From: Corallium rubrum
Taxonomy: Eukaryota > Cnidaria > Anthozoa > Scleralcyonacea > Coralliidae
Reading direction: 5' to 3'
NCBI GenBank assembly: GCA_964035015.1
Contig: OZ035998.1
Coordinates: 28,664,029-28,728,028, forward strand
Length of the DNA stretch: 64,000 nucleotides
The notes under the pieces were generated by a model. It saw nothing but the letters and a program-made list of their open reading frames with translations, was not told where the DNA came from and made no database searches. Made by a program: the position numbers and the translations under genes. Shown in pieces: positions 48,106 through 64,000 of this stretch. Each line of letters opens with the position of its first letter. Position 1 is the first letter of the stretch.

Positions 48106-54295
<6,190 letters not shown>

Positions 54296-54719: not shown

Positions 54720-55100
54720 TTCTCAATTCTGATTGGCTGCGAGGAGCGCAATTTTAGTGTAATTCAGTGCAGAAAAATGAAATACAGTGCAAATTTTGTA
54801 ATTTTTTAAATTTGCACAAAAATCATTTTTTACTAGAAAAAAAGTTCTTCCTGTTAATTTTTTTTTTCATGTATGTTATTTGAACAAAGCATTTTGATTA
54901 GAAAGATTCTCTTTATGATAAATTTTTTCATGTATATTATTAATAGGTAATAGCATGATTTCTCGTGCAATTTGAAAAAAACACGCACTCGTGAGTTTTT
55001 CAAAGACCTCAAATAGCACTCGTCCTTCGGACTCGTGCAATTTTGATAGTCTTTGAAAAACTCACTCGTGCATGTTTTTGTATCTGCGCAGCAGATATAT
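54720..55100. repeat. hairpin MITE-like element
   Basis: TTCTGATTGGCTGCGAGG opens the element. 54986-55073 pairs GCACTCGTGAGTTTTTCAAAGA with TCTTTGAAAAACTCACTCGTGC around a CCTTCGG turn. A related stretch (CACTCGTGAGATTTTCAAAA, CTCAGTCGTGCATGTTTTTT) lies at about 9560-9640. Confidence 0.6.
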
Positions 55101-55157
55101 TGCTATCGTGTTGTGTGTGGGTGTGTGGGTGTGTGGGTGTGTGTGTTTGTGTGTTAA
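55101..55157. repeat. GTGTGTGG-type microsatellite
   Basis: GT-rich run with GTGTGTGG units just before the transposon gene. Confidence 0.85.
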
Positions 55158-55184
55158 CTTTTTTGTGTAACCACTGACCTGTAG

Positions 55185-56010
55185 TGTGCGCTGTGGTGTA
55201 ACTCTAACCAATGCGCGACAATTATATCGGGGACAATCGGAGGTCAGGATTTTTTGGCGTCAACGTACGAACTGTCAGTCTGAACGATGGGAACAAGTAT
55301 TTTTCAATCCGTGTTTACGATATTTCGTCGCCATCCTCTCGGTTTTCGTGGTTGTTCTCGTTTTGATATTTCGACGCCATTGTTTCAAGAACACATTCAA
55401 GAAGAACTCTTTACAATTTGGTAAGTATTTTGAAGATGAATTGTAGTAAATTTGCAAGTGTGATCTACAACAGTTTTCGTGGGTTGTAGGAGTCACAAAA
55501 GATTTTCAAAGGCTGGTTAAAATAGTCAAATCCAGCCAAGACGGTCAAGTGGGCGAACACGTGTTTGACCAGATGGGCCAGATAGAGCTAGTTACAAGAA
55601 AGGATAACTCTCTTCGGAGGGCAAATCAACCTCTTCGGAGGGCAAATCAACCTCTTCGGAGGGCAAATCGACCTCTTCGGAGGGCAAATCAACCTCTTCG
55701 GAGGGCAAATCAACCTCTTCGGAGGGCAAATCAACCTCTTCGGAGGAATTATGATGAGCCTCTTCGGAGAAAAAATGAGCCTCTTAATAATCAGAGGAAT
55801 TATGATGAGCCCCTTCAGGGAAATAATGAGGCTCTTTTGAGAAAAAATGAGCCTCTTGTGAGGCAAGATGATCCACAACAATATACGAAACCTGTTGTAG
55901 TTCACAAGCAAACTATAAATGCTATCTACGATACCTACAATTCAGATCTTTGTTTAAATGAATACAGATCTTCTGTAAGAAAGTTAATTAAACAGCCAAA
56001 TGTCAAATGA
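55185..56010 (+). pseudogene. N-terminal part of the Helentron polyprotein (membrane segment and LRRANQP repeats)
   Basis: An exon ending at 55420 (donor TTTG|GTAAGT) joins in frame to 55490 (acceptor TTGTAG). The join links SLQF with GVTKDF. The first part has one likely membrane helix (YFVAILSVFVVVLVLIFRRH). No ATG lies in this frame, and CTGTAG at 55179-55184 could be an acceptor, so the true start may be further upstream. A different ATG frame begins at 55211 but stops at 55366. From 55609 a 21-bp unit encoding PLRRANQ repeats about seven times, followed by degenerate PLRRKNE-type copies. The frame ends at TGA (56008-56010), but it is open again directly after and is the same frame as the OTU/Rep gene. 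I therefore treat it as the N terminus of one long product. Function unknown. Confidence 0.55.
55609..55745 (+). repeat. 21-bp coding repeat (PLRRANQ)
   Basis: About 6.5 copies of CCTCTTCGGAGGGCAAATCAA differing by one base in one copy. CCTCTTCGGAGG itself is a near palindrome. Confidence 0.95.
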
Positions 56011-56061
56011 TATAGAGACCGTGAACCATCTAGAATACCTCTCAAAAAAATTATATTAGCC

Positions 56062-57366
56062 ATGAGAAAGAGAAAAAATCGACGAATAGTTAAGTATGTT
56101 CTTAAAAGATCGACTCCTGTGTCATCTGTTTTAAACAAGTTAGCTACCAATTTTAAAGAATATTGTTTAAAATCTGTGCACATGCAACATTTTTTCATGA
56201 AGACCTTCTGGTATTTTACACCAGTTAATTTTGTTAAAGTTCAGAAAAGCATTGGCGTAGCTGAACATTCCTTGTCCTATGTATTCAACAGTCCATGTGC
56301 CAATTCTAATTTTGAGAATCAACAATATCATGAATCTAAAAAAAAGCTTTTAATGTCTGGGGATATTGAATTAAACCCAGGTCCTGTGGAAAAGAGCACT
56401 AATGAAACTAGTATAACAATACCATCACATTTACGATTAGAGCAAAGATTACGTATATTTCAGTTGACACCACTTGATGTTGGTGGTGCAGGTGATTGTT
56501 TCTTTCGAGCTGTTTCACATCAGTTATATGGTGACCCAGGTCATCACTTAGATATTAGAGCTGCTGGTATTGCATATATGAGAGAGAATCCTGAGAGATT
56601 TATTGAAAGTAATACAGAGTATTCTTGGTTACAATACCTTAATAATATGTCTATGCAAGGAACATGGTGTGATGGTTTGATTATACAAGCTGTTGCTGAT
56701 CAACTTAATTTAAGAATTGTTATTACTGAGTCACATGAACATTTTTGTGAGGTCAATTTTATACGAGCTGTATCTTCAACACAGCGACCAACTGATGTTT
56801 TTTTGGGACATATAGATGAATACCATTATGTATCAACAGTGCCGTTTTCTGCAAGTTCAAATTTATCTGAAAATCCACAAACTGATTTGGAAAAATTAGA
56901 GGGAAACTTTTTAACAAATCAACTGCTTGATGAGAATATTCATAATTTTAAAAAGAACCAAAATATTCACATGAAGAAATATACAAAGAAAACAGGCTCT
57001 TGTAGAGAGAAAAAGAATGCTTACATGAAGGAATATATGAAAACAAAACGGTCAACTGAGGACCCTCCATCTAAGCAAAAAATAAATGATCGTACGAAGG
57101 AATATATGAAAAGAAAACGATCAACTGAGGACCCTCAGTCTAAGCAGAAAATGAATGAGCACCAAAAGGAATATATAAAAAGAAAACGATCAACAGAGGA
57201 CCCTCAGTCTAAGCAGAAAAGAAATGAGTGTAAGAAAGAATATATGAAAACAAAACGATCAACTGAGGACCCTCAGTCTAAGCAGAAAAGAAATGAATGT
57301 AAGAAAGAATATATGAGAACAAAACGATCAACCGAGGACCCTCAGTTTAAGCAGAAAAGAAATTAG
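56062..57366 (+). pseudogene. Helentron polyprotein, 2A-OTU-repeat part (434 residues before a nonsense codon)
   Basis: Numbering from the ATG at 56062. Residues 1-40 are basic. 99-108 are SGDIELNPGP, a perfect match to the 2A consensus D(V/I)ExNPGP, which makes ribosomes release at Gly107 and resume at Pro108. 134-260 form an OTU cysteine protease/deubiquitinase domain: GGAGDCFFRAV with Cys146, and EYHYVS with His255. From about 324 begin 23-residue units KEYMKTKRSTEDPQSKQKRNECK. The TAG at 57364-57366 replaces the GAG present at that place in all other units, so a single G-to-T change separates this part from the 1854-residue remainder, in the same frame. OTU plus KEYMK-type repeats are known at the N terminus of Helentron/Helitron2 proteins. 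Whether the stop is suppressed cannot be told. Confidence 0.8.
56356..56385 (+). other. 2A (StopGo) ribosome-skipping site
   Basis: Encodes SGDIELNPGP. All residues of the canonical D-I-E-x-N-P-G-P motif are present, and the upstream LLM is as in LINE-encoded 2A peptides. Translation should yield an upstream peptide ending in Gly and a downstream product starting with Pro, the OTU-Rep-helicase part. Confidence 0.85.
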
Positions 57367-57741
57367 TATAAGAAAGAATATATGAAAACAAAACGATCAA
57401 CTGAGGACCCTCAGTCTAAGCAGAAAAGAAATGAATGTAAGAAAGAATATATGAAAACAAAACGATCAACTGAGGACCCTCAGTCTAAGCAGAAAAGAAA
57501 TGAATGTAAGAAAGAATATATGAAAACAAAACGATCAACTGAGGACCCTCAGTTTAAGCAGAAAAGAAATGAATGTAAGAAAGAATATATGAAAACAAAA
57601 CGATCAACTGAGGACCCTCAGTCTAAGCAGAAAAGAAATGAGTGTAAGAAAGAATATATGAAAACAAAACGATCAACTGAGGACCGTCAGTCTAAGCAGA
57701 AAAGAAAGGAGTGTAACAGGGAATATATGAAAAGAAAACGA
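57031..57741 (+). repeat. 69-bp coding repeat, 10 units plus a partial
   Basis: Units of ATGAAAACAAAACGATCAAC... (23 codons) are nearly identical, later ones more so than the first two. One unit contains the TAG at 57364. The high identity suggests recent expansion by unequal exchange or replication slippage. Confidence 0.95.
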
Positions 57742-60700
57742 TCTGAACCTGTCAATCAATCAATACAAAGTTTAATTTTAAAATTCCATAATATTGTGTC
57801 CCAAGGACCACTTTATATATGCAGTTGTTGTGACCAATTGTGGTATAAACACAGTGTGTTGCCTGCTGCAACACTAAAGAAAACTAATCCTGCTATTGAA
57901 AAAAATCTTCATAAAACAAGTGTTGATAACATTGAATGGTTGTGTAGATCATGTTATAATTACTTAGTAAAGAATAAAGTGCCACCTTGTGCTGCCATAA
58001 ATGGGATGCAATTCACAGTAAAATCAACATTTTTTGACCTGAATGAATTGGAATGTCGATTGCTTGCTCCTAGATTAGCATTTCAAAAACTTATGCAAGC
58101 TCCTAGAGGGAGACAACTCAAAATCAATGGCAATATTGTCAATGTACCAGCAGATATTTCTAATACCATTAGCATGTTACCAAGGTTACCAGATGAAACT
58201 GGAACCATTAAAGTAAATCTAAAGAGAAAACTGCAATATAAAAGTTCAGCTTTATCATTAAATGTTCGGCCACACAAAGTAGTACAAGCTGCGAAGTGGC
58301 TTGTCAATAACAGTACTCTTTATAGAGAAGAAGGTATAAGTTTTAATCAAAATTGGCTTGACAATTATTCCAATGGGTTATTACTACAATGTGAAGGTGA
58401 TATTCAGGAAAATGAACATCAAACAGAAAAAATAAGTTATGATCAAGTACCAGTTAACGATGAAGATACCTGGAGTGAGGATGAGGTAGAAATACATGCT
58501 GGTGTTACAGACACCATGTTAACAGCAACTGATTTCATGACAGACAATGAACGTCAAAAAATTCTGAATGTTGCACCAGGTGAGGGCAGTACACCTCTAA
58601 GTATTTTCAGAGATAAATATTCTGAAGAATTGGCATATCCAGGTATCTTCCTTGGTGAAAAACGACCTGACAATACTAGCAGAATTACAGATGTTCATTA
58701 TAGCGAAATTTGCAAATCTGAGTTAAGACGGTCTGACAGAAGAGCTGCTATGTGTGTTGAGAATATTTTCTTTAAAACAAAGAAACTACAAATGAAAATC
58801 TTACTTGGGCAATCTCAAGTTGCCTTAAGGAAATGTCAAGGAAACAATGGATCAATTAAAGCAGGTCAGCTCAAACAAAAAGGGGCATTAGAAAAACTAA
58901 TTCATCACGATGAAGGGTTTAAGTTTCTGAGAGCATTAAGAGGCTCGCCTCCATATTTTGAAAAAGCTAAAAAAGATATATTTGCCATGATTAGACAATT
59001 AGGCTCAGCCTCATTATTTTGCAGTTTTTCTTCTGCAGAAACACAATGGGTTCATCTTCTTCGAATACTTAGTAAACTTGTTGATAACAAAGAATACACC
59101 GACACTGAGGTAGAAAATCTTAACTGGGAGGAAAAATGCAAATTAATTCAAAGTGATCCTGTTACATGTGCAAGACATTTTGACTATCAAGTAAATCAGT
59201 TTTTGCGAAACTTTCTCATGAGTAGTCAAGCACCTCTGGGGAAGATTGCTGATTGGTTTTATAGAGTTGAGTATCAACAAAGAGGCTCACCTCATATTCA
59301 TATGTTAATATGGTTGGAAGATGCTCCAATTTTTGGTGTTGATAATGATATTGAAGTTATAGAATTTATTGATAAAATAATTAGTTGCAAAAGGCCAACT
59401 GATAACCCTGAATTACATAAACTTGTAAACAGACAAGTCCATCGCCATTCTCACACTTGTAGAAAAAAATCTAAGGCACAATGTCGTTTCAATTATCCAC
59501 AGCCGCCCATGCGGTCAACAAAAATTCTTTATCCCTTAGATGTTGATGAGGAAAACAGTGAAAAGCACAAAAATATGTGGAAATCAATAAAAAAGCATTT
59601 GAATGATTTGAAAGAGGGTGAAGACATCACATTTGATGAACTGTTAATAAAATTGGATATAACTGAGCAAAATTATTTGCTTGCCATACGATCAGGGCTA
59701 AATGCACCAACCATATTTTTAAAGAGGCAGCCAAATGAATTAAGAATAAATAATTATAACCCTGCTTGCCTTAGTGCATGGCGAGCAAATATGGATATTC
59801 AATTTGTCCTTGATGTCTATGCATGTGCAATGTACATTGTATCATACATTTCTAAAGCACAAAAAGGCATGAGTGAACTTTTGAGAACTGCATGTGCTGA
59901 AGCTAGACGAGGAAACTCTACTATTAAACAACAAGTAAGAGACATTGGTAATAAGTTTTTGAACAATGTTGAAATTAGTGCACAGGAAGCAGTTTATATT
60001 GTGCTTCAACTTGCAATGAGAAAATCATCTCGTCAAGTGGTATTCATCAATACCTCACCTCCAGAAAACAGGGTTTGTCTTTTAAAACCAATGAATGACA
60101 TCAATGAAATGGAAGATGATTCAGAAGAAATTTATGCAACAGGTCTGCTAAAGCGATATACCAAACGACCTGCTAGCCTTGAACATGTATCTCTTGCTGA
60201 CTGGGCTGCATGGTATGATTCATGTGGTAAGCCACATGTCAAAAAATCTCACGAACTTGATATTGACAATCTTCCAATTGAAACAAACTTTAATGGTATT
60301 AATGACGATGAAGAGGAGGAGGAAGAAAAAGAGCCTTCAAAAAATAAGAAGAGATCAAAAGCTAGAATTATACGAAGTGTTTGCTTTAATAAGGAAGTAG
60401 ATTCTGAGAAACATTATCGTGAACTAATCATGCTGTTTACAGCATGGCGAAATGAACAAACTGACTTGATTGGTAATTGTTCTTCCTATCAAGAATATTT
60501 CTTTCAAGTAAAACATTTAATAGATGAGCAAATGAAACAGTATGCTATATGCAGTGAAGACTTAAATGAAATTCAAAATCAATTAAGTAACATGGATGAT
60601 AATGATGATAATTATGACTTAATTGCCCCGGGAACACAGAACATTGAGTGCCAAGATGAATCTGAGGGTGCTCAAGACCTGCATCCTGATTTTAATGAAA

Positions 60701-62946
60701 ATTATGATCTTTCCAGTGATATTGGAATCCCTTCTACTGCCTCAAATAGTGAACAACTTATATTAAATGAATTAGAGGACTGTGATTACAGACAAATGGT
60801 ACAGAAACTGAACAAAGAACAAAAAGAGTTCTTCTTTCACATTTTACATCTGATTAAAACAACAGATAAGCCATTTCACTGTTTTCTCAGTGGAGGAGCT
60901 GGTGTTGGAAAATCACATCTGACTAAAGCACTGTATCAAGCAGCACTAAAACATTACAATACAAGAGCTGGTGATGACTTTCATCAAGTAAAGGTGTTAT
61001 TGCTTGCCCCAACTGGTAAAGCTGCTTTTAATATTAAAGGGAATACAATCCACAGTGCCCTCGCAATACCAGCATGTCAATCATTAAAGAATTACAAACC
61101 TCTTGACTCAAGCAGACTGAACACCTTAAGAAGTCAACTTGGTGGTGTAAAATTAATATTCCTTGATGAGATTTCAATGGTGGGTAGTACAATGTTTAAT
61201 GTTCAGATAAACAACAGACTCAAAGATATTAAGGGAAGCACAGAAAACTTTGGAGGTGTAAGCATAATTGCAATTGGAGACTTGTTTCAGTTAGAACCAG
61301 TGATGGATAGATATATATTTAAGGAGCTTGACAATTCAGAATATGCTATTCTTGCTCCTAATCTATGGCAAGACTACTTTAAAATGTTTGAGCTTAAGGA
61401 AATTATGAGACAGAGAGAGAGCAAAGTGTTTGCTGAAATTTTAAATAGATTAAGAGAAGGCAATCACACAAAAGATGACATTTTAAAAATTAAAGAAAGA
61501 ATGATTGAAGAAAATGGTGCACATGATCCAATGGATGTACCACATTTGTTTATCCAAAATATTAAGGTAAATGAGTTCAATGCAAGGGTCCATCATGCAG
61601 CAACTGGTGAGAAGTACTCTATAAGAGCAGTTGATAGTGTGATAGGAGCTAACTCTGCCCAACTCAGAGATAAAATTATCAGTCAAATACCAAGTGATCC
61701 CAGGAAGACTAAACAAATTATTTCAAACCTCCAATTATCGGTAGGTGAAAGAACAGAAGTAGCAGTAAATGTACGAACTGAAGATGGCATGACAAATGGT
61801 GCTGGTAATGTTATTAAAAAGATACAATTAAACCAAAGAGATAAACCATCAGGGATAATATGGGTACAGTTTGACCATGCTGATGTTGGTGAGAAGACTA
61901 GACATGAGAATAGACAACTTTATGTTCAGGGTATTTCACCCACATGGACTCCAATAAAACCAATTACTACTCAGTTTGCTGTTGGTAGAAACCAGACTGC
62001 ACAAGTTGTCAGAAAACAGTTTCCATTGCGGCCTGCTGCTGCAAAAACAATTCATCGATCACAAGGTGATACTGAGCAAAAAATAGTTGTTAACTTTAAC
62101 ACTAGAAGAGCAATACCTCATATACATTATGTTGGTCTTAGCAGAGTAACAACCATAGAGGGGTTGTATATCACTGATTTGTGTGAACAAAAAATAGCTG
62201 TCAATCCTTATGTGAAGACTGAAATGGAGAGTCTAAGAACAGAGCGCTATCTTAAACTTAGTGTGTCTCCTGTTTATAGTTTTGATCCGGTATCATTTAA
62301 ACTTTGCTTCCTTAATGCAAGATCATTGCACAGACATATTGATGATGTTCGCCATGATTTAAATTATACTTCTACTGATATCAATATTTTTTCAGAAACA
62401 AGATTTACTAATTCAGATAATGATAATATGTATACAATTGATGGGTATACCTTATTTAGAAATGATGCTCAACCTTCTCTGACTTCAAGACCTTATGGAG
62501 GTACAGCAGTGTTCAGCAGGGTTGATTTTATCCCTGGCTATCCACGTGCTCATAATATTAATGGTATTGAAATAACTATTATGAAAGTAATGATTCTTCC
62601 ACATGTAACGATAATAGGTGTATATCGCTCACCTAAAATTCCAGTACAGCAATTGTGTCATGCTTTAAATGAGGTACTCACCTTTTCAACTTCTCAGTTC
62701 AATATTGTTATTGGTGATTTTAACATTAACTGGCTTGATGAATGTAGTAGAAGACCTCTATATAATCTATTTGTTAATGAAAATAATTACAGACAACTAA
62801 TATCCAAATATACTACTGACAACCAAACCGCTATAGATCATATTTATACAAATTTACCAGAATCACAAACTAAAAGTCACGTGTTAGAAACCTATTTTTC
62901 TGATCACAAATCAATTTGTGCATTAATTAATTGTTTTAACAAATAA
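57382..62946 (+). CDS. Helentron/Helitron Rep-helicase-endonuclease polyprotein (1854 residues)
   Basis: Rolling-circle transposase in one frame with the 56062 start (add 440 for full numbering, used here). Residues about 442-560 are 23-residue repeats; 587-640 a Cys-rich zinc-like region (CSCC, CRSC), DUF6570-like. 960-1270 form the Helitron Rep domain: HUH motif HIHMLIW (His1078, His1080) and YIVSY with Tyr1258 and Tyr1262 of the Y2 type, which nick and join DNA. 1590-2040 form a Pif1-like SF1B helicase: Walker A GGAGVGKS (Lys1617), LDEIS (Asp1702-Glu1703), GDLFQLEP, TIHRSQG and YVGLSRVT. 2075-2294 form an exonuclease-endonuclease-phosphatase (AP-like) endonuclease: NARSL, SETR (Glu2112), YRSP, GDFN (Asp2219, Asn2221), DHIY and FSDHKS (His2282). 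All key residues are present. A C-terminal endonuclease defines the Helentron group. The only lesions in the whole frame are upstream TGA 56008 and TAG 57364. Confidence 0.9.
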   Translation: MKTKRSTEDPQSKQKRNECKKEYMKTKRSTEDPQSKQKRNECKKEYMKTKRSTEDPQFKQKRNECKKEYMKTKRSTEDPQSKQKRNECKKEYMKTKRSTEDRQSKQKRKECNREYMKRKRSEPVNQSIQSLILKFHNIVSQGPLYICSCCDQLWYKHSVLPAATLKKTNPAIEKNLHKTSVDNIEWLCRSCYNYLVKNKVPPCAAINGMQFTVKSTFFDLNELECRLLAPRLAFQKLMQAPRGRQLKINGNIVNVPADISNTISMLPRLPDETGTIKVNLKRKLQYKSSALSLNVRPHKVVQAAKWLVNNSTLYREEGISFNQNWLDNYSNGLLLQCEGDIQENEHQTEKISYDQVPVNDEDTWSEDEVEIHAGVTDTMLTATDFMTDNERQKILNVAPGEGSTPLSIFRDKYSEELAYPGIFLGEKRPDNTSRITDVHYSEICKSELRRSDRRAAMCVENIFFKTKKLQMKILLGQSQVALRKCQGNNGSIKAGQLKQKGALEKLIHHDEGFKFLRALRGSPPYFEKAKKDIFAMIRQLGSASLFCSFSSAETQWVHLLRILSKLVDNKEYTDTEVENLNWEEKCKLIQSDPVTCARHFDYQVNQFLRNFLMSSQAPLGKIADWFYRVEYQQRGSPHIHMLIWLEDAPIFGVDNDIEVIEFIDKIISCKRPTDNPELHKLVNRQVHRHSHTCRKKSKAQCRFNYPQPPMRSTKILYPLDVDEENSEKHKNMWKSIKKHLNDLKEGEDITFDELLIKLDITEQNYLLAIRSGLNAPTIFLKRQPNELRINNYNPACLSAWRANMDIQFVLDVYACAMYIVSYISKAQKGMSELLRTACAEARRGNSTIKQQVRDIGNKFLNNVEISAQEAVYIVLQLAMRKSSRQVVFINTSPPENRVCLLKPMNDINEMEDDSEEIYATGLLKRYTKRPASLEHVSLADWAAWYDSCGKPHVKKSHELDIDNLPIETNFNGINDDEEEEEEKEPSKNKKRSKARIIRSVCFNKEVDSEKHYRELIMLFTAWRNEQTDLIGNCSSYQEYFFQVKHLIDEQMKQYAICSEDLNEIQNQLSNMDDNDDNYDLIAPGTQNIECQDESEGAQDLHPDFNENYDLSSDIGIPSTASNSEQLILNELEDCDYRQMVQKLNKEQKEFFFHILHLIKTTDKPFHCFLSGGAGVGKSHLTKALYQAALKHYNTRAGDDFHQVKVLLLAPTGKAAFNIKGNTIHSALAIPACQSLKNYKPLDSSRLNTLRSQLGGVKLIFLDEISMVGSTMFNVQINNRLKDIKGSTENFGGVSIIAIGDLFQLEPVMDRYIFKELDNSEYAILAPNLWQDYFKMFELKEIMRQRESKVFAEILNRLREGNHTKDDILKIKERMIEENGAHDPMDVPHLFIQNIKVNEFNARVHHAATGEKYSIRAVDSVIGANSAQLRDKIISQIPSDPRKTKQIISNLQLSVGERTEVAVNVRTEDGMTNGAGNVIKKIQLNQRDKPSGIIWVQFDHADVGEKTRHENRQLYVQGISPTWTPIKPITTQFAVGRNQTAQVVRKQFPLRPAAAKTIHRSQGDTEQKIVVNFNTRRAIPHIHYVGLSRVTTIEGLYITDLCEQKIAVNPYVKTEMESLRTERYLKLSVSPVYSFDPVSFKLCFLNARSLHRHIDDVRHDLNYTSTDINIFSETRFTNSDNDNMYTIDGYTLFRNDAQPSLTSRPYGGTAVFSRVDFIPGYPRAHNINGIEITIMKVMILPHVTIIGVYRSPKIPVQQLCHALNEVLTFSTSQFNIVIGDFNINWLDECSRRPLYNLFVNENNYRQLISKYTTDNQTAIDHIYTNLPESQTKSHVLETYFSDHKSICALINCFNK

Positions 62947-63343
62947 TTGCATATACATGTACTGTACCCCAGTACTATTGTACGATCATTGGTAGCTTAT
63001 GCATAGTGGGTATATCTTACAGTGCATAAACGCTTCACATGTAGCTCCAAATAAGGAGATAATTTCGCTCTGAATAGCAGACAGGTAGTTTGAATACAAT
63101 AGAGACAACACTTTGACAATTAAGTATTTTTATATTATTGTTATTTATTTCAGTTTCCAAAGTTACAATATCAGGTGAGCATATTTTATTTTCATTTTAA
63201 AGACGTTAGTTACCCCCTTCTTCTCTGCCATATAATTTTCCTTATTTACTTTAGCCGTTTCGTTTTACTTTCTTATTTAAATTTTATTATTTTTTAAAAC
63301 ACTTGTAATCTTTAATATATAATTATTAATTATACTCACCATA

Positions 63344-63347
<4 letters not shown>
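62947..63347. other. 3' flank of the transposon, boundary not resolved
   Basis: GTACTGTACCCCAGTACTATTGTAC at about 62957-62981 forms a small hairpin that could belong to a terminal structure. At 63153-63173 a 21-base stretch (TTTCCAAAGTTACAATATCAG) sits between a TTATTTCAG acceptor and a GTGAGC donor and could be a microexon of a gene continuing at 63866. The exact transposon end cannot be set by eye. Confidence 0.35.

Positions 63348-63390
<43 letters not shown>
63348..63390. repeat. AT microsatellite
   Basis: About 42 bases of AT repeat at the edge of MITE family D. Confidence 0.9.
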
Positions 63391-63393
<3 letters not shown>

Positions 63394-63665
63394 AGGTTAT
63401 ATCCCGAGAACGCGGGATATAAGTCATATATTGACCCGAGGGGCCGAAGGTCCCGAGGGTCAATATATGACTTATATCCCAAGTTCGAGGTATATAACCG
63501 ACTTATATCACGATTGAGGAGGTTTTCGAACAAGGTTTCGTCAATTTCGAAGAGTTTCGATCAAGATTTTTCGAGTTATATCCACAAGTTTTATCTAATT
63601 ATTTATTCACGGGATATAACCTGTATATATCCCGCGGTACATCAAAGAAAACCGACTCAATCGTG

Positions 63666-63674
<9 letters not shown>
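63391..63674 (+). repeat. MITE family D, copy 2, with nested palindrome
   Basis: Relative of 24893-25120 in the opposite orientation (TGACTTATATCCCAAGTTCG, TATATCACGATTGAGGAGGT, CGATTGAGTC-like ends). It contains an extra GGATATAAGTCATATATTGACCC palindrome around GAGGGGCCGAAGGTCCCG at 63413-63478. Confidence 0.75.

Positions 63675-63708
<34 letters not shown>
63669..63708. repeat. AT microsatellite
   Basis: AT repeat directly following the MITE. Family D is bounded by AT repeats in both copies, so it may insert into or generate them. Confidence 0.85.
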
Positions 63709-63715
<7 letters not shown>

Positions 63716-63865
63716 CTCAGTTAGAGTACTGATATACAAGCTCAGGGTCATTGCCTTTTATTTCCAGCTGAAAGGCCTGCATGATAGTTGTATTCTTGCA
63801 ACTGGTCCTATATAGATCGACATATGTATAATATATTTATCACACTTACATTTTTCTCTCACTAG

Positions 63866-64000
63866 TACAGTACCTAATCCAAACAAGACAGTAAACAAGT
63901 CCAGAAGAAAATACTTTGGCTGCAAAGTTCAAACAACACAAGAAGAAGCTGTCAAAGTAACTGATATGTTTGTCTTCTGGAAAAATCAACCTGCAACAGA
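63866..64000 (+). CDS. possible exon of a gene running off the window
   Basis: After a pyrimidine-rich acceptor TTTTTCTCTCACTAG the frame reads TVPNPNKTVNKSRRKYFGCK and VQTTQEEAVKVTDMFVFWKN without a stop to the end of the window. The preceding 21-base candidate microexon (63153-63173) joins in phase (FQSYNIS). Composition is protein-like; I do not recognise the family. Partial, no start seen. Confidence 0.4.

Follow-up and report, generated by a model that had tools for sequence, protein, structure and literature searches.

A probable StopGo (2A) signal precedes the deubiquitinase domain in Helentron transposons of Corallium rubrum and related proteins

Is a 2A, or StopGo, signal in the frame of a rolling-circle transposon an accident of one copy or a regular part of the element? 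The question is raised by a stretch of 64,000 nucleotides from Corallium rubrum (assembly GCA_964035015.1, contig OZ035998.1, positions 28,664,029 to 28,728,028 of the forward strand), here called the window. It contains a Helentron copy at 55076-64000, which extends beyond the end of the window; the borders were set by the start and stop of homology to related stretches of the same genome, and all features given below lie on the forward strand. The sequence KLLMSG-DIELNPGP, encoded at 56344-56385, stands shortly upstream of a cysteine protease domain of the OTU type. Comparison with other copies and with homologous proteins shows that the 2A is a recurrent, conserved part of deubiquitinase-carrying Helentrons, and more general than the initial annotation of the window claimed.

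The octapeptide DIELNPGP (56362-56385) agrees at every position with the StopGo core (D/G/C/N)(V/I)ExNPGP, and the predicted break is between the glycine at 56380-56382 and the proline at 56383-56385. Compared by eye with the published classes, the upstream KLLMSG fits an L-rich class that ends in (A/S/C)G and has Asp at p12; a motif-6 example of this class has its activity supported in rabbit reticulocyte lysate (PMC12846837). Searched on both strands, the window has a single match to a degenerate DNA pattern encoding D-(F/L/I/M/V)-E-x-NPGP; 100 shuffled versions have none. As is expected of a StopGo signal, the sequence is conserved, in frame and situated between two coding modules, the flanking frame of the window copy itself carrying stops.

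The region encoding leader, 2A and OTU was used to search the 474-Mb assembly, where the window is found at C8:28664029-28728028. This gave 139 matches, and 94 of them were examined; the other 45 fell short of the core or were overlapping pieces of counted copies. The sample includes the matches C285:105493, C49:5518540, C8:35488835 and C1:47438711 and improved pieces for L034 and L036. It represents 92 copies, and the core is kept in 77 of the 89 that are aligned over all eight residues (76 of 88 without the window copy); L091, L092 and L143 are not so aligned and stand outside the tally. Counting used the motif (D/G/C/N)(V/I/T)ExNPGP, in which T at the second place widens the published motif; with V or I only, the numbers are 76/89 for these copies and 48/134 for the homologues described below. 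Each of the 12 copies that fail has either a disrupted frame or one or two altered residues in the octapeptide. DIELNPGP is present in every one of the 11 listed matches whose open frame has 2000 codons or more and no stop.

The core is among the best conserved octapeptides of this region. In a set of 88 pieces (85 aligned, 73 with the core) the overlapping GDIELNPG and DIELNPGP rank first and second among 257 octapeptide windows, the top mean conservation being 0.95 as against 0.77 for the best octapeptide within the leader. For 14 hand-chosen copies of this set, the window copy included, the core has a ratio of non-synonymous to synonymous differences (pN/pS) of 0.042, and leader, linker and OTU domain have ratios of 0.70, 0.81 and 0.43, respectively; these are pairwise values without correction for multiple hits or shared ancestry. 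Across the same copies the core shows about 191 synonymous and about 27 non-synonymous pairwise differences.

Three protein searches, one of which contributed its best 120 of 802, yielded 134 distinct homologues. Many of these are gene predictions on contigs, and short upstream parts may be truncations. Their deubiquitinase classes were assigned with hidden Markov models (HMMs) built from the 134 proteins themselves. The 2A core is present in 49 homologues and always stands shortly before a deubiquitinase, which is OTU in 36 and the herpes-tegument-like VTD in 13; from the end of the 2A to the start of the domain there are 14-40 residues for OTU and 11-15 for VTD. When at least 40 residues precede the domain, the 2A is found in 36 of 41 OTU proteins, in 13 of 13 VTD proteins and in 49 of 55 deubiquitinase proteins altogether. 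It is lacking in the single protein with both OTU and VTD, in the one OTU protein and the 11 VTD proteins with fewer than 40 upstream residues, and in all 67 proteins without a detected deubiquitinase, 49 of which have at least 40 residues before DUF6570. Four reversed or permuted control motifs did not occur in the 246,884 homologue residues. The 2A-bearing homologues that carry an organism name, a minority of the 49, are anthozoan, namely P0025 from Paramuricea clavata and P0043, P0044, P0125 and P0126 from Oculina patagonica. That the 2A is kept before two unrelated deubiquitinase domains in the relatives suggests a functional component rather than an accident. The initial annotation had proposed a 2A upstream of OTU in a rolling-circle transposon, with its presence in other copies and in homologues as the check; motif, frame and conservation in both sets agree with this proposal.

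Related signals occur elsewhere in the genome. A DNA pattern anchored on GATGT, which has no power for the GATAT codons of the window 2A, matched 152 places (78 forward, 74 reverse), and its backward control matched none. The first 48 places as listed were classified. By HMM, 29 of them precede VTD and one precedes OTU, and by reading another five (L005, L101, L103, L125 and L139) show a flank of the VTD type, the sequence beyond it being damaged or truncated. Helentron-type sequence thus holds 35 of the 48 sampled GATGT-type 2As, 30 by HMM and five by the reading of flanks. Nine (L007, L106, L111, L114, L118, L123, L128, L136 and L140) were read as similar to long interspersed nuclear elements (LINEs) from their endonuclease-type start, and L119 and L122 fall in no clear class by reading. 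In L115 and L126 the 2A is followed by a Cys-rich PHD-like stretch, which belongs neither to a deubiquitinase of the Helentron kind nor to the start of an endonuclease.

Odon in 2013 and Heras in 2006 reportedly described 2A-like sequences of non-LTR retrotransposons. The likeness lies in a virus-like D(V/I)ExNPGP within a mobile element, of which the LINE-like cases in the same genome, identified by reading, are examples. However, what follows these LINE-like 2As is an endonuclease-like start (NARSL and similar). The window 2A instead stands before a deubiquitinase, with the endonuclease far away at the C terminus. The idea that the 2A was brought in with a LINE-like endonuclease is unsupported, the endonuclease being at the opposite end of the protein.

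The initial annotation placed all modules in one frame, and it is true that everything from the leader to the endonuclease lies in a single frame ending at 62946. The window copy is nevertheless not one open reading frame (ORF): an in-frame TGA (56008-56010) breaks the leader and an in-frame TAG (57364-57366) lies inside 69-bp repeats, leaving ATG-started ORFs at 56062-57366 and 57382-62946. The start given earlier, 55185, is one base off the frame. Three 10-kb stretches of the same genome, L039, L040 and L041, were compared with the window copy, and in all three the frame is open at the place of the TGA. L039 shares about 98% identity with the window copy and is likewise interrupted. In L040 and in L041 the leader, the 2A and all further modules up to the endonuclease are encoded without a stop in a single frame, of 2401 codons in the former and 2439 in the latter. 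The feature in the window is a damaged Helentron copy with intact relatives.

The leader contains 21-bp tandem repeats (55610-55746, found by Tandem Repeats Finder) that encode LRRANQP heptads, similar heptads being present in L040 and L041, and a conserved basic domain (RDREPSRIP..., 56011-56211) predicted by AlphaFold2 to form four helices. The block means of this model are 92-96 over residues 11-50, and the mean of the whole model is 68.7. The leaders of L040 and L041 have net charges of +38 and +50 and maximum hydropathies over 19 residues of 0.73 and 0.84. Among other leaders of at least 60 residues the net charge goes from +2 to +67, the short type described below being lowest (+2 to +8). 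A membrane-anchored leader had been proposed earlier. This is not supported: the hydrophobic stretch LRYFVAILSVFVVVLVLIF (55315-55371, Kyte-Doolittle maximum 2.79) is followed by two in-frame stops in the window, and L040 and L041 have no comparably hydrophobic segment, so that hydropathy, the sole measure used, gives no support to a membrane leader in these intact copies. Higher values are seen in P0047 (2.23), P0100 (1.95) and the short-type leaders (1.1 to 1.9), and some relatives may therefore have a leader with a membrane role.

Two leader types can be distinguished, the RDREPSR type of the window and a short type ending in LLIRLAN-like sequence, with some leaders unclassified. Both types precede both deubiquitinases, as P0047 combines RDREPSR with VTD, and P0122 and P0131 combine the short type with OTU. 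On an unrooted tree of 62 Rep rows, made by a quick method and with some long branches, deubiquitinase type requires three changes and leader type, counted over classified rows, also three. Judged from these combinations, leader and deubiquitinase types are exchanged around the 2A. The window copy is a mosaic too. Its half with leader, 2A and OTU is nearer to L040 (91% identity, against 79% with L041), and the half with Rep, helicase and endonuclease is nearer to L041 (97%, against 85% with L040). The identity shift falls at the 69-bp repeats (57008-57743), and a 300-base piece of the OTU region (56491-56790) is about equally distant from the two (93.7% and 93.0%).

It seems probable, at roughly 80%, that the one long frame of the intact relatives is translated into two proteins, a leader and a deubiquitinase-Rep protein, by skipping at the 2A. 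By homology to StopGo, a ribosome that has made LLMSGDIELNPG and has the codon for proline next would skip the Gly-Pro bond. This would release the basic leader with its heptad repeats and small helical domain, and the ribosome would continue into a second protein that starts with proline and comprises deubiquitinase, Rep, helicase and endonuclease. Once free, the leader would probably serve in trans as an accessory that is nuclear or binds nucleic acids, and the separation would give the deubiquitinase-Rep enzyme a free N terminus. The motif, its frame and position, its conservation and its presence before two deubiquitinase classes are directly visible in the copies and homologues; we infer that skipping occurs, and likewise its efficiency and the role of the leader in trans.

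Several observations weigh against translation into two proteins. The copies and homologues are related, and the counts are not independent events. Six of the 55 deubiquitinase proteins with at least 40 upstream residues have no 2A. On the Rep tree, what is found at the 2A position (2A, L[KN]GG, start or none) takes eight changes to explain, although some of these may be truncated predictions. The fold of the leader has no structural match in the PDB or among viral structures at E<=0.001. Finally, Asn stands directly before Asp in 34 of 34 sampled VTD-type 2As (L001-L006, L008 and VTD-type loci among L101-L139), for example LLRMAN-DVEENPGP, and the StopGo survey reports a strong preference for Gly at this place (PMC12846837). 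The activity of the VTD-type 2A is less certain because Asn is found where viral 2As with Asp prefer Gly.

This atypical Asn at p11 would fit a signal that is leaky on purpose. Partial skipping would then give both leader-fused and leader-free deubiquitinase-Rep, differing in location or activity, much as partial skipping serves dual targeting in sea urchin NOD-like receptors (NLRs) (PMC4981915). However, the window sequence is canonical at all core positions and the leaders of L040 and L041 have, by hydropathy alone, no strongly hydrophobic segment, and such leakiness appears possible but unlikely. It is improbable that the N terminus of deubiquitinase-Rep is made by internal AUG initiation or by splicing, with the 2A as a relic. 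This reading can draw on a splice-donor-like GTAAGT at about 55421 of the window and on six VTD proteins (P0081, P0082, P0096, P0109, P0118 and P0119) that group on the Rep tree with a support of 93, lack a 2A and start 7-11 residues before VTD, which is about where a 2A would put the new N terminus; truncation of the gene prediction may explain a further five short VTD proteins. Nonetheless, a pN/pS of 0.04 in the core, compared with 0.7-0.8 in leader and linker, is not expected of a relic, and the frame of L040 and L041 is open across the 2A. Conservation by itself cannot name a function, and the octapeptide might be kept for another cause, such as a protein-protein contact, with no skipping at all. 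This is very improbable, as the positions that are conserved match the StopGo pattern (D-I/V-E-x-NPGP, x being variable) and are found with two leader types and two deubiquitinase classes. A chance motif in a single copy has practically no probability left and is ruled out by the shuffles and by the conservation in the own-genome copies and in the homologues, 49 of 134 of which have the core.

Some OTU relatives lack the 2A. P0129, P0130, P0132, P0133 and P0134 have no NPGP, and all five carry S-x-L-(K/N)-G-G-(M/V) at the place of the 2A within an otherwise variable linker. Their best BLASTP alignments with each other show 61-77% identity, and four of them have the RDREPSR leader, P0134 beginning downstream of it. 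The C-terminal residues of ubiquitin are LRGG, and deubiquitinases cut behind the GG; the OTU domain might therefore conceivably cleave its own protein at L[KN]GG. The pattern may instead be a decayed 2A or specific to the clade. In P0130 no endonuclease family was detected at E<=0.01, and a search of viral contigs with this protein confirmed no relative. P0121, which has OTU and VTD and is labelled partial, and P0128 are also without a 2A. A tentative and rather doubtful extension of the two-protein reading is that release of the leader is required and is achieved interchangeably by 2A skipping, by a start codon directly before the deubiquitinase, or by OTU self-cleavage at L[KN]GG in the 2A-less clade.

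When it comes to the element itself, its modules follow in the order described earlier and have the diagnostic residues. The OTU domain (56485-56766; Pfam PF02338, 2.2e-10; Foldseek match to OTUD3, 2.5e-06) has its catalytic Cys at 56497-56499 in a GDCF motif (56491) and its His at 56824-56826 in a YHY motif (56821), just past the Pfam match. The OTU part of the predicted model matches OTUD3, OTUD1 and DUBA in Foldseek, the whole model being of low confidence with a mean predicted local distance difference test (pLDDT) value of 52.5. Fold and catalytic residues are those of an OTU deubiquitinase. It is followed by 10.4 copies of the Lys/Arg-rich 69-bp tandem repeat (57027-57743, Tandem Repeats Finder), a Cys-rich segment (CSCC...CRSC, 57820-57954, motif scan) and DUF6570 (57970-58359; PF20209, 2.6e-17). 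The Helitron_like_N/HUH Rep region (58924-59847; PF14214, 7.5e-25, match 58924-59310) contains HIH at 59293 and YxxxY at 59833, and the PIF1 helicase (60805-61473; PF05970, 3.7e-25) has its Walker A motif at 60892. The C-terminally fused endonuclease domain of the apurinic/apyrimidinic (AP) type (62317-62907; Exo_endo_phos, PF03372, 9.4e-06) scores 26 bits against a cut-off of 24.5 and has GDFN at 62713. A two-tyrosine HUH Rep, a PIF1-type helicase and a C-terminal AP endonuclease identify the element as a Helentron. Non-LTR retrotransposons have a reverse transcriptase. A Pfam scan of both ORFs gave no match at E<=0.1 to a reverse transcriptase domain, which a 2A-bearing non-LTR retrotransposon would have; the sole match with a retroelement name is Exo_endo_phos_2, in the endonuclease part.

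The 5' end of the Helentron lies at about 55075-55080 inside a T run, a border judged by eye against L039 alone. Helentrons insert at a T-T target. Immediately upstream is an inverted repeat of about 100 bp (54977-55079), and a tandemly repeated stretch at 51341-51751 overlaps several ORFs on both strands. Homology to L041 runs to the window-equivalent position 65187, which is the end of the L041 stretch. A stretch of about 270 bp (63395-63665), with an inverted repeat beside AT repeats, is missing at the same place in L039 and L041 and is probably a small insertion. At 63880-64000, continuing into L100:1-800, there is a decayed downstream frame with a CxxC...C stretch, conserved in L039 and L041. 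It was considered as replication protein A, and no Pfam match exceeded the cut-off.

Helentrons with OTU or VTD have been published, with VTD inside the Helitron ORF and OTU as an additional ORF or domain (PMC4067079; PMC9741609). They share Rep, PIF1 helicase, C-terminal endonuclease and cysteine protease with the elements described here. The 2A, combined with one or the other deubiquitinase, is what the present elements add. The main text of PMC9741609 contains neither "NPGP" nor "2A peptide", and it states that ubiquitin cleavage by the viral (alloherpesvirus context) and transposon OTU domains is untested. A 2A near the N terminus also parts a leader from a larger protein in the sea urchin NLRs, but there the leader is a signal sequence (PMC4981915), whereas the leaders of L040 and L041 are basic and not strongly hydrophobic. 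The core octapeptide and the LLLLSG-like upstream class are shared with RNA-virus StopGo sequences. The survey of these concerns RNA viruses, and its main text has no word beginning with "helitron" or "transpos" (PMC12846837); the same holds for the main text of a 2A review (PMC8623073). The T2A in PMC4778049 belongs to a reporter construct, judging from the part available. The open-access literature searched, judged partly by listings, yielded no description of a Helitron protein with a 2A. Rao 2025 may hold an earlier listing, because according to PMC12846837 its survey took in viral and cellular proteomes. Taken singly, this kind of element, the deubiquitinases and the 2A have all been described before. 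What appears to be new, within the literature searched, is that they are combined and that the combination is conserved.

The 2A connects the two deubiquitinases of Helitrons, OTU and VTD, with each other. It points to the leader peptide as an unstudied product of Helentrons, a class of DNA transposons, and the biogenesis of the Helentron enzyme becomes directly testable.

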